Assembly (NCBI RefSeq): GCF_016889705.1
Contig: NZ_CP069526.1
Span: forward strand, 1,302,001 to 1,366,000
Origin: Amycolatopsis sp. FDAARGOS 1241
GTDB taxonomy: Bacteria; Actinomycetota; Actinomycetes; Mycobacteriales; Pseudonocardiaceae
Length of the DNA: 64,000 bases
Reading direction: 5' to 3'
The notes under the pieces were generated by a model. It saw nothing but the letters and a program-made list of their open reading frames with translations. It had not been told where the DNA came from and did no database searches. A program made the position numbers and the translations under genes. Of this stretch, positions 58,457 to 62,222 are shown one piece after another (within the stretch, counting starts at the first letter, position 1; each line of letters begins with the position of its first letter).

Positions 58457-59725
58457 TCATGAGGAGTGCGATCGCCGAGCGACCGGTGGGGTCGGGATGC
58501 GGTTGTAGATGTCGCGGAATCGGCTGGTCTCCATCGCCAGCGCCCCGCCGTCGTTCGGCGCCCGGTACAGGTGCTCGCAGTTCAGGGTGCCGAAGAAGCG
58601 TTCGATGACCCCGGTTGGTCTGCGGTGATCGGACGCGGGTGCGGACGTGGCGCAGCAGTGGGTCCTCGCCTGCGAACGCGGTCTGGTGGGTCTCGCCACG
58701 GAAGCAGGAGCCGTGGTCAGAGACGTCGGCGATCGGCGCCGGGACGACGTCGATGATTTCGCCGGTGGTTTCGTCGACCAGTTCGAGCTCACCACGCTTT
58801 GCCCGTAGGTCGCCGGGGCCGAGAACGCGTTCGGCCTCGGCGACGGCGGCGTCAAGGCACGCGAGGGCGTCGGTGCCGCGGCCGGTCGGGGTGATGGTGA
58901 TGGCGAGGCAGTACTTGGTGGCGTAGTCGATGACGGCGCAGATGCGCCCGATGCCGCCGCCGGTGGCCTCGAAACCGCTGAAGTCGCCCTACCAGACCCG
59001 GTTGCGTTCGGTGGGCGGGTCGTGGAACACCTCGCGGCGCAGGGCGGCGCAAGACTTGCGATCGGCCCAAGAACCCGCGCGGCAGCAGCAACCCGCGCCG
59101 ACGCGGCGCCCGCTCCACGGTCGAGGTCGACACTGAGAGTCCGTCGGCGCGCATCATCGCGGCGATCTTGCGCTGCTCCCACGCCGGCCAATCGGACGCG
59201 TACTTCGCTGCCGGCGCCTCGAGGGCGTCGACCGACGGTGTCGGCCACGGCCCCTTGACCGGCTCGTCCCCGGCCCGGAGCTTGGCGAGGCGGCGCCGGT
59301 AGGTGCGTTCCGGGATGCCGGCCAGCCGTGTGAACCTCGCGAGCGGCAGCTCGGCTGCCGCTCTCAGGGCCTCGAGGTCTGCGAAGGGATCTGGTCGACG
59401 TACTCCGAGCCCTCGCTGCCGGACCCGCAGCTGCACCGTCGCCTCAGCCGGCGCCAAGTTCAACTCCTGGATCTCGGCCCGCTGCCGACGCTCGACCAGG
59501 CTGCCCGGGCGCCGGCCTTGCCCGGCATACCGTCCTCCATTGCAGCTTTGCCCGCATCGACGAAGCGGTTGCGCCAGCGGTTGATCGACTCCGTCGACAC
59601 CCCGTGCCGACGCGCAGCCTCCGCGACGCCAGCTCGTGCGCCAACACCGCGAGCACGAGCTGCAGCCGCGTCTCGACCGGCACCGGGTCGTTGCTCTTCC
59701 TGCTCACGATCGAAGTGCCTGTCAC
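58457..59725 (-). pseudogene. DDE-type transposase (IS3/IS481-like), frameshifted
   Basis: Leftward pieces rebuild an integrase-fold transposase: LGVAEAARRHGVSTESINRWRNRFVDAGKAAMEDG (HTH), LARFTRLAGIPERTYRRRLAKLRAGDEP, ASDWPAWEQRKIAAMMRADGLSVSTSTVERA, then the catalytic domain VWYGDFSGFEATGGGIGRICAVIDYATKYCLAITITP, ADVSDHGSCFRGE and SPQTNGVIERFFGTLNCEHLYRAP. The D, D and E positions are kept, but at least three frame changes split the gene. Terminal inverted repeats were not found. It marks the island as mobile in origin. Confidence 0.8.
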
Positions 59726-59776
59726 GGATCAGCCCAAAAACCCTGCCAGAAAGTCCGACGCACACCAACGGGGTCA

Positions 59777-59876: not shown

Positions 59877-60545
59877 TCACCCCCGATGCAACACCATCCG
59901 CTCCACCACACTCCACGTCGTCGTAGTCAGCACATACACCGACGCAGCCAAGGGAACAAAAGCGGTAACCAAAACCGTTCCATAAGGCAGGAGGCGGAGG
60001 AACCGAGCGCCCGGAGCACTGAAGTCGCGCTGACGGTCCTGCCACCGGATCGAGAACCACGCCACCACGGCGAGCAGGCCGGCCACCACGAACACCAACG
60101 GGGCCGCGGCGAGGCCGTGAGCCCCGAGCGAGAGGCCCAGCAGGGTACTGCCGAGCAGCGCGTTGGGGGCGCCGGCGATCACTGCGGCGCTGAAGAGGTG
60201 GTACATCACCCAGAAGAACGGCAGTTGCGCGACCATCGGCAGGCATCCGACGAACAGCGACGTCCCGGACTCCTGCTGCAGCCTCGCCATCTCGGCAGCC
60301 AGCGTGTCGCGGTCGTTGCCGTGCTTTTTCCGCAGCTTCTCGATTTCGGGCAGCAGCGCGGTGCGGGCCCGCTGCCCGCGGGCCGCGGCTCGGGCGAACG
60401 GCACGAGCAACAGCCGCACGGCCACGGTGAACAGCACGATCGCGACGGCGGCCGCGAACGAGCCGGTGACGGGTTCGGTCGCCGAAGCGAGCCAGTGGAC
60501 GAGGTGGTACGCGCCTTCGACGGGCAGGTCGAGGAATCCGGGCAT
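59877..60545 (-). CDS. YidC/Oxa1-family membrane insertase paralogue
   Basis: The protein has 222 residues, shorter than main actinobacterial YidC (over 300). AVAIVLFTVAVRLLLVPFARAAARGQRARTALLPEIEKLRKKHGNDRDTLAAEMARLQQESG is the hydrophilic-groove Arg and cytoplasmic coiled-coil hairpin region; FVGCLPMVAQLPFFWVMYHLF and later segments complete five membrane helices. It inserts or folds membrane proteins. It lies downstream of the DUF6412 gene in the same orientation. Confidence 0.9.
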   Translation of the reverse strand: MPGFLDLPVEGAYHLVHWLASATEPVTGSFAAAVAIVLFTVAVRLLLVPFARAAARGQRARTALLPEIEKLRKKHGNDRDTLAAEMARLQQESGTSLFVGCLPMVAQLPFFWVMYHLFSAAVIAGAPNALLGSTLLGLSLGAHGLAAAPLVFVVAGLLAVVAWFSIRWQDRQRDFSAPGARFLRLLPYGTVLVTAFVPLAASVYVLTTTTWSVVERMVLHRG

Positions 60546-60638: not shown

Positions 60639-60926
60639 TCACGCAGCCGGGGAGTGCTGTCCGGGTGCGCGGGGCCGGCTTCGGCCGGGTGCGCCGGGAT
60701 CGCGCAACCGCAGGAACGCCGCGCGGCGCGACCGCTGGTTCAACGCGGTGTGGCGGGCGCGCACGGGGATCGTCCACGTCGCAAGCTCACCGCGGTTCGC
60801 GTTGGCGACCACGATGACCACGAGCAGGCTCGCCGCCACCACGGAGGCGAACGTGAAGAACGCGGCCGGGCCGCCCTGTTCGACCAGGTGGACGGCGGGG
60901 AACGCGAGCAGCAGCAGTGCGTGCAT
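60639..60926 (-). CDS. DUF6412 domain-containing small membrane protein
   Basis: The protein has 95 residues. One or two hydrophobic segments (MHALLLLAFPAVHLV; FFTFASVVAASLLVVIVVANA) and a basic tail RRAAFLRLRDPGAPGRSRPRAPG match the DUF6412 pattern found next to YidC-like genes in actinomycetes. Function unknown; a partner or substrate of the adjacent insertase is plausible. Divergent from the Rho paralogue. Confidence 0.75.
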   Translation of the reverse strand: MHALLLLAFPAVHLVEQGGPAAFFTFASVVAASLLVVIVVANANRGELATWTIPVRARHTALNQRSRRAAFLRLRDPGAPGRSRPRAPGQHSPAA

Positions 60927-61154
60927 GCGGCGTCCCCTTCCGGTGTGTGGCGCGTCCCCCTGTTCGGGCGCCAGTGTAGCCGAGTTCGAAAGGGTGTTGT
61001 GGCTTTCCCAGCCGGTGCGTTATGCTCACCGCGATCCCCATGGATGCCGGCTCAGCCGCCCGGGGGAGTTTTTCTCTCTTCACGCGAACCCGAGTGACTC
61101 GTGTTCGTTCTCGCGATCCGTCGATCGCAACTCACACCTGTTCAAGGAGTCATC

Positions 61155-62222
61155 ATGTCCTACGTTGGAATTCTCGATGTCCGCGGCAAGACCGCCACGC
61201 TCGGCTACGGGCCGGGCGGGCCGACCGTCCCATTCGGACTGATCCGCAAGCACAGCCTGCGCCGGGGTGACGAAATCGTCGTCGAGGGCGAGCAGCTCGT
61301 CTCGGTCAACGGCGCCCCGCCGCCGCCGGACCGCCCCGAGTTCGAGCGGCTCACGCCCGTGCACCCCGATGAGCGGCTCGTGCTCGAAACGACCCGCCAC
61401 CAGCTCACGACCCGCGTGCTCGACCTCGTCGCGCCCGTCGGCAAGGGGCAGCGCGCGCTGATCGTCGCACCGCCCCGCACGGGAAAGACGTCGGTGCTGC
61501 AGGCGATCGCCCAGGCGGTGGCGGTCAACCACCCCGAGGTGCACCTCATGGTCCTGCTCGCCGACGAGCGGCCCGAGGAGGTCACCGACATGCAGCGGTC
61601 GGTGCGCGGCGAGGTCGTCGCCTCGACCTTCGACCGCAAGCCCGCCGAGCACGTGGCCGTCGCCGAGCTCGTCGTCGAACGCGCGAAGCGCCTAGTCGAA
61701 TCCGGCCGCGACGTCGTGCTGCTGCTCGACTCGCTCACGCGCCTCGGCCGCGCCTACAACCTCGCCGGCCGCGCTTCCGGCCGCATCCTGTCCGGCGGGG
61801 TGGACGCCGGCGCGCTGCACCCCATGAAGAAAATCCTGGGCGCTGCCCGCAACATCGAAGGCGGCGGCTCGCTCACCATCATCGCCACGGCCCTCGTCGG
61901 CACCGGTTCGCTCGCCGACACGGTGTTCTTCGAGGAGCTCAAGAGCACGGGCAACTCGGAGCTCCGCCTCGACCGCGCCCTCGCTGACAACCGCGTGTTT
62001 CCCGCCATTGACCTCTTCGCCTCCGGTACCCGCCGCGAAGAGCTGCTCCTCTCGCCGGCCGAACTGCAGGTCATGACGGAGGTCCGCCGCGCACTGGCCG
62101 CCCAGGACCCCAAGCGGGCCGCCGAGCAGTTCCTCGACCAGGTCCGCACCACGAAGTCCAACGCGGAGTTCGTGGTCCGCGTCGCGGCCTCCCTCGGCGC
62201 CCCGGCCGCCGCAGCCGCCTGA
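61155..62222 (+). CDS. Short paralogue of transcription termination factor Rho
   Basis: The protein has 355 residues; main actinobacterial Rho is 600-700. The ATPase core is well kept: GKGQRALIVAPPRTGKTSVLQAIAQ (P-loop 106-113), LMVLLADERPEEVTDM (137-146), LLDSLTRLGRAYN (191-202), AIDLFASGTRREELLL (Arg finger). However, the N-terminal helix bundle is missing, and the RNA-binding GFGFLR-type motif is replaced by GKTATL (11-16). The R-loop DTGSKMDEVI is GTGSLADTVF (249-258), so the RNA-contacting Lys is Leu253. P-loop Lys-Ala is Arg108-Thr109. ATG 61155 follows AAGGAGT. Probably not a normal terminator. Confidence 0.9.
   Translation: MSYVGILDVRGKTATLGYGPGGPTVPFGLIRKHSLRRGDEIVVEGEQLVSVNGAPPPPDRPEFERLTPVHPDERLVLETTRHQLTTRVLDLVAPVGKGQRALIVAPPRTGKTSVLQAIAQAVAVNHPEVHLMVLLADERPEEVTDMQRSVRGEVVASTFDRKPAEHVAVAELVVERAKRLVESGRDVVLLLDSLTRLGRAYNLAGRASGRILSGGVDAGALHPMKKILGAARNIEGGGSLTIIATALVGTGSLADTVFFEELKSTGNSELRLDRALADNRVFPAIDLFASGTRREELLLSPAELQVMTEVRRALAAQDPKRAAEQFLDQVRTTKSNAEFVVRVAASLGAPAAAAA

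Follow-up and report, generated by a model that had tools for sequence, protein, structure and literature searches.

The stretch analysed here (the window) comprises 64,000 nucleotides (nt) of contig NZ_CP069526.1 of the soil bacterium Amycolatopsis sp. FDAARGOS 1241, and it carries a gene for what is, by sequence, a second Rho, paralogous to the full-length Rho of the same genome. Such short paralogues, in which the primary RNA-binding site is lacking, are referred to as type D, and further short forms in the family of the host fall into groups S1, S2 and S3. The gene and the features in and ahead of it, in window positions, are as follows.

60997..61026, + strand: promoter-like TTGTGG (60997-61002), 18 nt, TATGCT (61021-61026)
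61035..61067, + strand: conserved hairpin of the leader, with which the transcript is predicted to start, UCCCC-AU-GG-AU-G-C-CGGC-UCA-GCCG-C-CC-G-GGGGA
61070..61154, + strand: C-rich, G-poor leader from hairpin to start codon (28 C and 17 G in 85 nt), with a composition like that of a Rho utilization (rut) site
61144-61149, + strand: Shine-Dalgarno sequence AAGGAG ahead of the short rho start
61155..62222, + strand: short rho gene, type D, 355 amino acids (aa) and a stop codon
61155..61328, + strand: shrunken N-terminal domain with an oligonucleotide-binding (OB) fold, residues 1-58
61464..61490, + strand: P-loop APPRTGKT region
61776..61805, + strand: Q-loop (secondary RNA site), residues 208-217
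61902..61913, + strand: R-loop TGSL, residues 250-253

The short Rho protein

The start codon was supported by a Met at the aligned position in 28 of 31 intact type-D orthologues; here and below, protein counts exclude L187 (the broken type D of genome G179), L189 (a fragment) and L122 (split). The nearest named homologues of the protein were from Amycolatopsis. A full-length rho was located at contig positions 1165101-1166990 (706-aa frame, 670.4 bits), approximately 196 kb from the short rho (contig position 1363155), so the short copy is not the only rho of this genome. In Pfam searches the host main Rho had Rho_N, Rho_RNA_bind and the ATPase domain, whereas the short Rho had, of these three, the ATPase domain alone (PF00006, 86 bits), PF07497 (Rho_RNA_bind) not being detected; identity between the two proteins was 59.5% across the shared region. 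With models for Rho, the short Rho scored 460.9 bits for the equivalog TIGR00767, under the curated cut-off of 509.45, and 445.3 for NF006886, over the cut-off of 315. Short Rhos are already known as a kind (NCBIfam NF041509, "transcription termination factor Rho, short form", paralog_Rho2), yet are uncharacterised. The short Rho (483.7) and a second type-D protein (L184, 449.3) did not reach the NF041509 cut-off of 628, and among 10 further short forms L237 (686.5) and L190 (641.6) passed and eight failed. The two that passed also have an eroded primary site; type D differs in having lost all six primary-site contacts rather than some of them.

The initial annotation had described an open reading frame with a complete Rho ATPase core that had lost the N-terminal helical bundle and carried GKTATL (residues 11-16) in place of the aromatic primary RNA site, and this description was borne out: DERPEEVT, DSLTRL and the Arg finger (R293) are intact, and Rho_N is confined to the main copy. 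Catalytic Glu, Walker A/B and Arg-finger residues were kept in 31/31 type-D proteins; within the Q-loop, positions 208, 210 and 212-216 were invariant (n=31), 209 and 217 were conserved in 30/31, and 211 was V, I or T. The six primary-site contacts, all present in each of the 15 main Rhos of the family compared, were all absent from each of the 31 intact orthologues, which come from four genera. The OB fold itself is retained in the predicted structure, statements on fold resting on AlphaFold2 (AF2) monomer models, of which the first (predicted local distance difference test score, pLDDT, 79) was superseded by a deeper one. The net charge of residues 1-58 was about -1 on average across type D. 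Judged from these aligned residues, the ATPase and Q-loop sets of the short Rho are intact and its primary RNA site is stripped.

The replacement of Lys-Ala by Arg-Thr in the P-loop, also claimed earlier, was confirmed (Arg108-Thr109, with Walker Lys111 retained); Arg was found in 25/31 type-D proteins, Thr in 30/31, and the Walker Lys and Thr in all 31; 12 of a further 73 main Rhos also have Thr in the second changed place. The supposed loss of the R-loop lysine stood in part: Leu253 does occupy the place of E. coli Lys326 (position Ec326; Leu in 28/31 type-D proteins, Gln in 3/31), but the trait is not peculiar to the paralogue, and it was rejected as such, since Thr is found there in 15/15 family main Rhos, that of the host included. 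Five other differences from main Rho were fixed in type D (each 31/31), namely Ec279 Arg, Ec300 Ile, Ec322 Gly, Ec331 Phe and Ec335 Leu; these sit around the RNA channel and the R-loop helix, and most are common to the S1 forms, Ec322 Gly being an exception.

Compared with full-length Rho (TIGR00767), the short Rho thus shares the RecA-type ATPase core, the Q-loop, the catalytic Glu, the Arg finger and, as modelled, the overall fold, and differs in having no N-terminal extension. Of the solved structures, M. tuberculosis Rho (7oqh) came nearest both in sequence (412.7 bits) and in the fold of the model; its R-loop likewise has no lysine, and Thr501 stands at its Ec326 position (PMC8828861). 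Unlike the short Rho, that protein has a primary site, a large N-terminal insertion and Met495, where the short Rho has Leu247.

The leader hairpin

A conserved block was first seen on aligning the upstream regions of type-D genes, and subsequently in the majority of the family's remaining short rhos. It can be drawn as a hairpin with an outer helix that varies, GG/CC, a bulge of two bases, a G-C pair, a bulge of one base and an inner helix of four pairs, and it was present in 31/31 type-D, 17/18 S1, 10/11 S2 and 14/22 S3 leaders and in 1/11 from other families (by eye). The leader alignment (A3) contains 73 of 93 short-rho loci. Fourteen of these 73 rows were chosen by eye (L085, L128, L174, L188, L190, L191, L192, L193, L197, L198, L202, L205, L207 and L208) and the pattern for the remaining rows was written after the alignment had been made, so that A3 favours the motif and the genome scan below serves as the independent test. 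Some short rhos without the hairpin (L196, L201, L206, L210, L211; L194, L203, L209) have other long leaders, which are apparently conserved among themselves.

Covariation was measured on the 72 distinct rows of A3. Pairing was found in 84.1% of cells compared with 76.0% in shuffles, double-sided changes occurred in 10 of 13 pairs and in 93 cells (27.9 in shuffles), and the score was at its maximum at slide 0; none of 500 shuffles matched any of the five measures. The outer helix, examined on unaligned flanks, scored 12.45 compared with 11.04 (standard deviation, sd, 0.25), a value reached by none of 500 swaps. RNAalifold alone recovered the inner helix only, and the minimum-energy fold of the window leader contains a similar hairpin. 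Searches with Rfam (4227 families) gave no match at E ≤ 1 in 60900-61200 and none at gathering scores in eight related loci, and the hairpin looks like a candidate new RNA family.

A covariance model, whose E-values are rough because calibration was short, gave a single clear match in the host genome, the short-rho leader itself (2.9e-6; next 0.2). Among 390 genomes of the family, 85 matched at E ≤ 0.01, once each, and 80 of these matches lay upstream of a short rho, 23 of them in genomes absent from A3; the five lying elsewhere compare with about 3.9 expected by chance. Of the 80, 74 were 50-226 bp upstream of listed short rhos and the other six preceded, by 124-217 bp, genes whose proteins cluster with the family short Rhos and retain 2, 2, 2, 3, 3 and 5 contacts out of six (at two of these six, L250 and L259, the open frame extends upstream and the start is unsettled). 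Within the genus, 59 genomes carry a short rho, of which 51 gave a match, and none of the other 21 did. Beyond the family, 328 genomes of the order gave 10 matches, nine of them at short rhos seen before, and 296 genomes of the class gave two, one in the host genome and one in G476, away from its listed short rho. Seventy-seven loci (main rho, or short rho outside A3, plus L237) gave one weak match (E 0.056), no hairpin being found beside the main rho loci tried; L237 is in A3, yet was not recovered at E ≤ 0.1. By these counts, within the genomes searched, the covarying hairpin occurs almost only at short rho.

The pattern TTGnnn-N16-19-TAnnnT was found a median of 15 nt ahead of the hairpin core in 68 of the 73 leaders, the window's own promoter-like motif being one instance, compared with 13 of 1460 letter shuffles; a stricter promoter scan found none. 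Based on this position, the transcript should begin with the hairpin. Behind the hairpin, the leader runs for 85-113 nt (group means) with an excess of C over G: C minus G was 0.153 in type D (31 leaders), 0.222 in S1, 0.155 in S2 and 0.165 in S3, versus 0.002 (sd 0.084) in 256 control upstream regions drawn from rough gene calls, and 69 of the 73 leaders exceeded the control mean plus one sd. C-rich, G-poor RNA is what Rho loads on. It was also noticed that an inverted repeat, GCGATC/GATCGC (61113-61118 with 61123-61128), stands just ahead of the Shine-Dalgarno sequence; some relatives carry matching changes in this second repeat, e.g. ACGATC/GATCGT in L184, and as the type-D alignment is very gapped there it was not counted as a hairpin.

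Distribution, history and gene neighbourhood

A short Rho was present in 59 of 80 genomes of the genus (one split), of type D in 17 of them. The type-D N-terminus (E < 1e-25) was found in 32 of 390 family genomes from four genera, one copy (G179) being broken, and a search of residues 1-82 against 5.8 billion proteins gave 22 proteins among 84 word-sharing candidates, the named ones being from Amycolatopsis, Saccharopolyspora or Actinokineospora. The median pairwise ratio of nonsynonymous to synonymous substitution rates (dN/dS) in type D was 0.18 for the whole gene, 0.14 for the ATPase part and 0.365 for the N-terminal domain (main Rho, 0.083), a pattern of purifying selection on which a pseudogene was rejected, the broken G179 copy notwithstanding. 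The broken, split or fragmentary short rhos L187 (G179), L122 (G031) and L189 (G172) point to decay of the gene in some strains; the leader hairpins of G179 and G031 are still detected by the covariance model despite the damaged genes. A role as a defence gene was rejected, PADLOC having given just weak P-loop matches (25.2 and 15.2 bits).

In a 74-row tree with 12 type-D rows, type D formed one clade with a Shimodaira-Hasegawa-like approximate likelihood ratio test (SH-aLRT) value of 99; adding five of the six S1 rows gave 97, and adding all six gave 72 (not significant). All 40 short forms of the family were grouped, together with L237 of family f2, at 96.5. FastTree placed the actinobacterial short Rhos in a single clade (0.88) with L239 inside, whereas in IQ-TREE ten of the eleven short Rhos from other families branched elsewhere, and that all actinobacterial short Rhos arose once is neither shown nor rejected (approximately unbiased, AU, test, p 0.152). 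Judged by the tree placement of sibling main Rhos, two of the groups from other families are Streptomyces-like and Streptosporangium-like. Ten short Rhos from other actinobacterial families (L215, L216, L218, L235, L236, L238, L240, L241, L242 and L243) have kept the residues at Ec66 and Ec78 and lost those at Ec80 and in the Ec110 loop; their primary sites may have eroded in parallel or by shared descent. Two further second copies of rho were seen, L228 (G630), with all six contact classes kept, and L239 (G585), which branches with its own main Rho, and these are possible intermediates or separate duplications.

Two genes divergent from the short rho lie beside it, neither of them established as a member of the system.

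60639..60926, - strand: DUF6412 protein (PF19950, 38.4 bits)
59877..60545, - strand: YidC/Oxa1 paralogue (PF02096, 99.1 bits)

The initial annotation had proposed that these two genes and the short rho form a unit. This was rejected as not general: the YidC paralogue and DUF6412 stand beside the short rho at 6/31 type-D loci, all within the genus (0/14 outside it), and a YidC paralogue, which 40 of the 80 genus genomes possess (in one as a fragment), is within about 2 kb of a short rho in nine of the 40, namely G000 (the host), G010, G021, G032, G047, G059, G068, G070 and G079. A seventh type-D locus, L094, has a weak YidC match (1.2e-6), and among the fetched loci the pair also adjoins one S1 and one S2 short rho. 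The linkage recurs but is not required, and is lineage-specific. In G003, G027, G054 and G057 the short rho is about 20-27 kb from the YidC/DUF6412 pair, hinting at an old common location that was later broken up, and in G061 the pair is a long way from the short rho and 113 kb away from the main one. No neighbour cluster was common to most loci across genera, gene calls being rough and rho itself uncalled at some loci, and a conserved operon partner was rejected on that basis; neighbour cluster 4 accompanies 13 type-D loci within the genus and one beyond it, there on the opposite side of rho. Beside the YidC paralogue, 59460-59768 (- strand) gave transposase-like helix-turn-helix matches, all under Pfam cut-offs, possibly an insertion remnant. 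Among the matches listed, no mention of DUF6412 was found in the open-licence literature.

A proposed auxiliary Rho motor and its competitors

The reading that we prefer, with a probability of roughly 0.4, is that of an auxiliary Rho motor without a primary site that is controlled by attenuation in its own leader. From the features above we infer ATPase activity, hexamers, mixed rings, the transcript start, Rho-dependent attenuation and the direction of feedback. The short Rho would be a ring subunit that hydrolyses ATP and threads RNA via the Q-loop channel, and, because its primary site is gone, it would be unable to catch RNA at rut sites alone. Loading would be done by something else, 1) in rings mixed with main Rho, in which fewer primary-site pockets would tune the choice of RNAs terminated, or 2) in a ring of its own acting on RNA delivered to the channel. 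Main Rho could load on the C-rich, G-poor leader RNA behind the hairpin, so that attenuation would set the amount of short Rho, and falling Rho activity would lead to more of it being made. E. coli rho has an autoregulated leader; by analogy, the present gene is a rho with a plausible leader attenuation, the difference being a hairpin without an Rfam match.

Several points weigh against the auxiliary motor. Where the two proteins overlap, the short Rho differs from the host main Rho by about 40%, which may preclude mixed rings; the type-D N-terminal domain is slightly net negative on average, and no neighbour common to most loci across genera is at hand as an RNA loader. For the leader, the hairpin was not recognised in 1/18 S1, 1/11 S2, 8/22 S3 and 10/11 other-family short rhos, the family scan missed 15 of the 72 family leaders used to build the model, and the leader as a whole, folded to its energy minimum, is of ordinary stability (z -0.92). 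Part of the covariation could be mimicked by a symmetric DNA operator, a rut-like composition alone is no proof of Rho-dependent termination, and a terminator scan of the leader found no intrinsic terminator.

The chief rival, which we regard as possible though somewhat unlikely, is an independent motor, a homohexamer of short Rho with another job (e.g. clearing of R-loops or antisense RNA) that is loaded by a partner or binds RNA in the channel only. The five fixed differences around the RNA channel and the R-loop helix are as expected of a retuned motor, and the lack of a conserved neighbour is also in its favour. However, RNA fails to activate the ATPase or helicase of E. coli primary-site mutants (PMC12203952), so that a ring of short Rho alone would need help, and no partner gene is evident.

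It is more doubtful that the leader element is a ligand-binding riboswitch, or an RNA or DNA operator bound by a protein, unrelated to Rho activity. Conserved bulges (GG-AU-G-N) in a helix whose flanking pairs vary, and a position at the predicted 5′ end, would suit such an element; against this, the concentration of family matches at short rho (80 of 85) favours Rho feedback over a signal common to several genes.

It had also been suggested that the short Rho could poison main Rho. Subunits without a primary site would then join main Rho rings and reduce termination, as an anti-terminator, and the retained catalytic and Arg-finger residues make co-assembly chemically plausible. We consider this quite unlikely, because PMC12203952 reports no dominant effect over wild type for the E. 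coli primary-site mutations Y80C and P103L. In addition, a plain poison would have no need of so well conserved a catalytic site and Q-loop. The other roles suggested at first, in tuning main Rho, in replacing its subunits or on a different substrate, may still apply.

An earlier link to bicyclomycin, in the form of a spare Rho that inhibitors of the bicyclomycin type would not affect (target duplication), draws on the P-loop change from Lys-Ala to Arg-Thr and on Ec337, Gly to Ser in 26/31, places that we take to be in or near the drug pocket. This is very improbable, since a spare that has lost its grip on RNA could hardly stand in for Rho by itself, and since Ec320 is the drug-sensitive Leu in 31/31 type-D proteins while 14/15 family main Rhos already have the resistant Met. 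According to PMC8828861, a Leu-to-Met change (Met495) is what makes M. tuberculosis Rho drug-resistant, and Thr501 and Met495 weaken its motor.

Returning to the auxiliary motor, an extension of it that we hold to be unlikely is a two-Rho homeostasis circuit, in which main Rho would terminate in the short-rho leader and, upon a drop in Rho activity, the leader would allow the second subunit, without its primary site, to be made, to enter the rings and to alter the choice of substrate; if this were true, both a heteromeric Rho ring tuned by its composition and the leader element would be new. Among the matches listed, the open-licence literature held no work on a short Rho paralogue or on the leader element, and what appears new here, as judged from sequence, is the covarying 5′ hairpin with the C-rich, G-poor leader of short rho. 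Rho is usually treated as one homohexamer whose RNAs are chosen by the primary site. A conserved second Rho with intact motor residues and no primary site separates choosing from pulling and offers a natural way to find out which purpose the primary site serves, and the leader hairpin specific to short rho would be a ready reporter of the signal that controls it.
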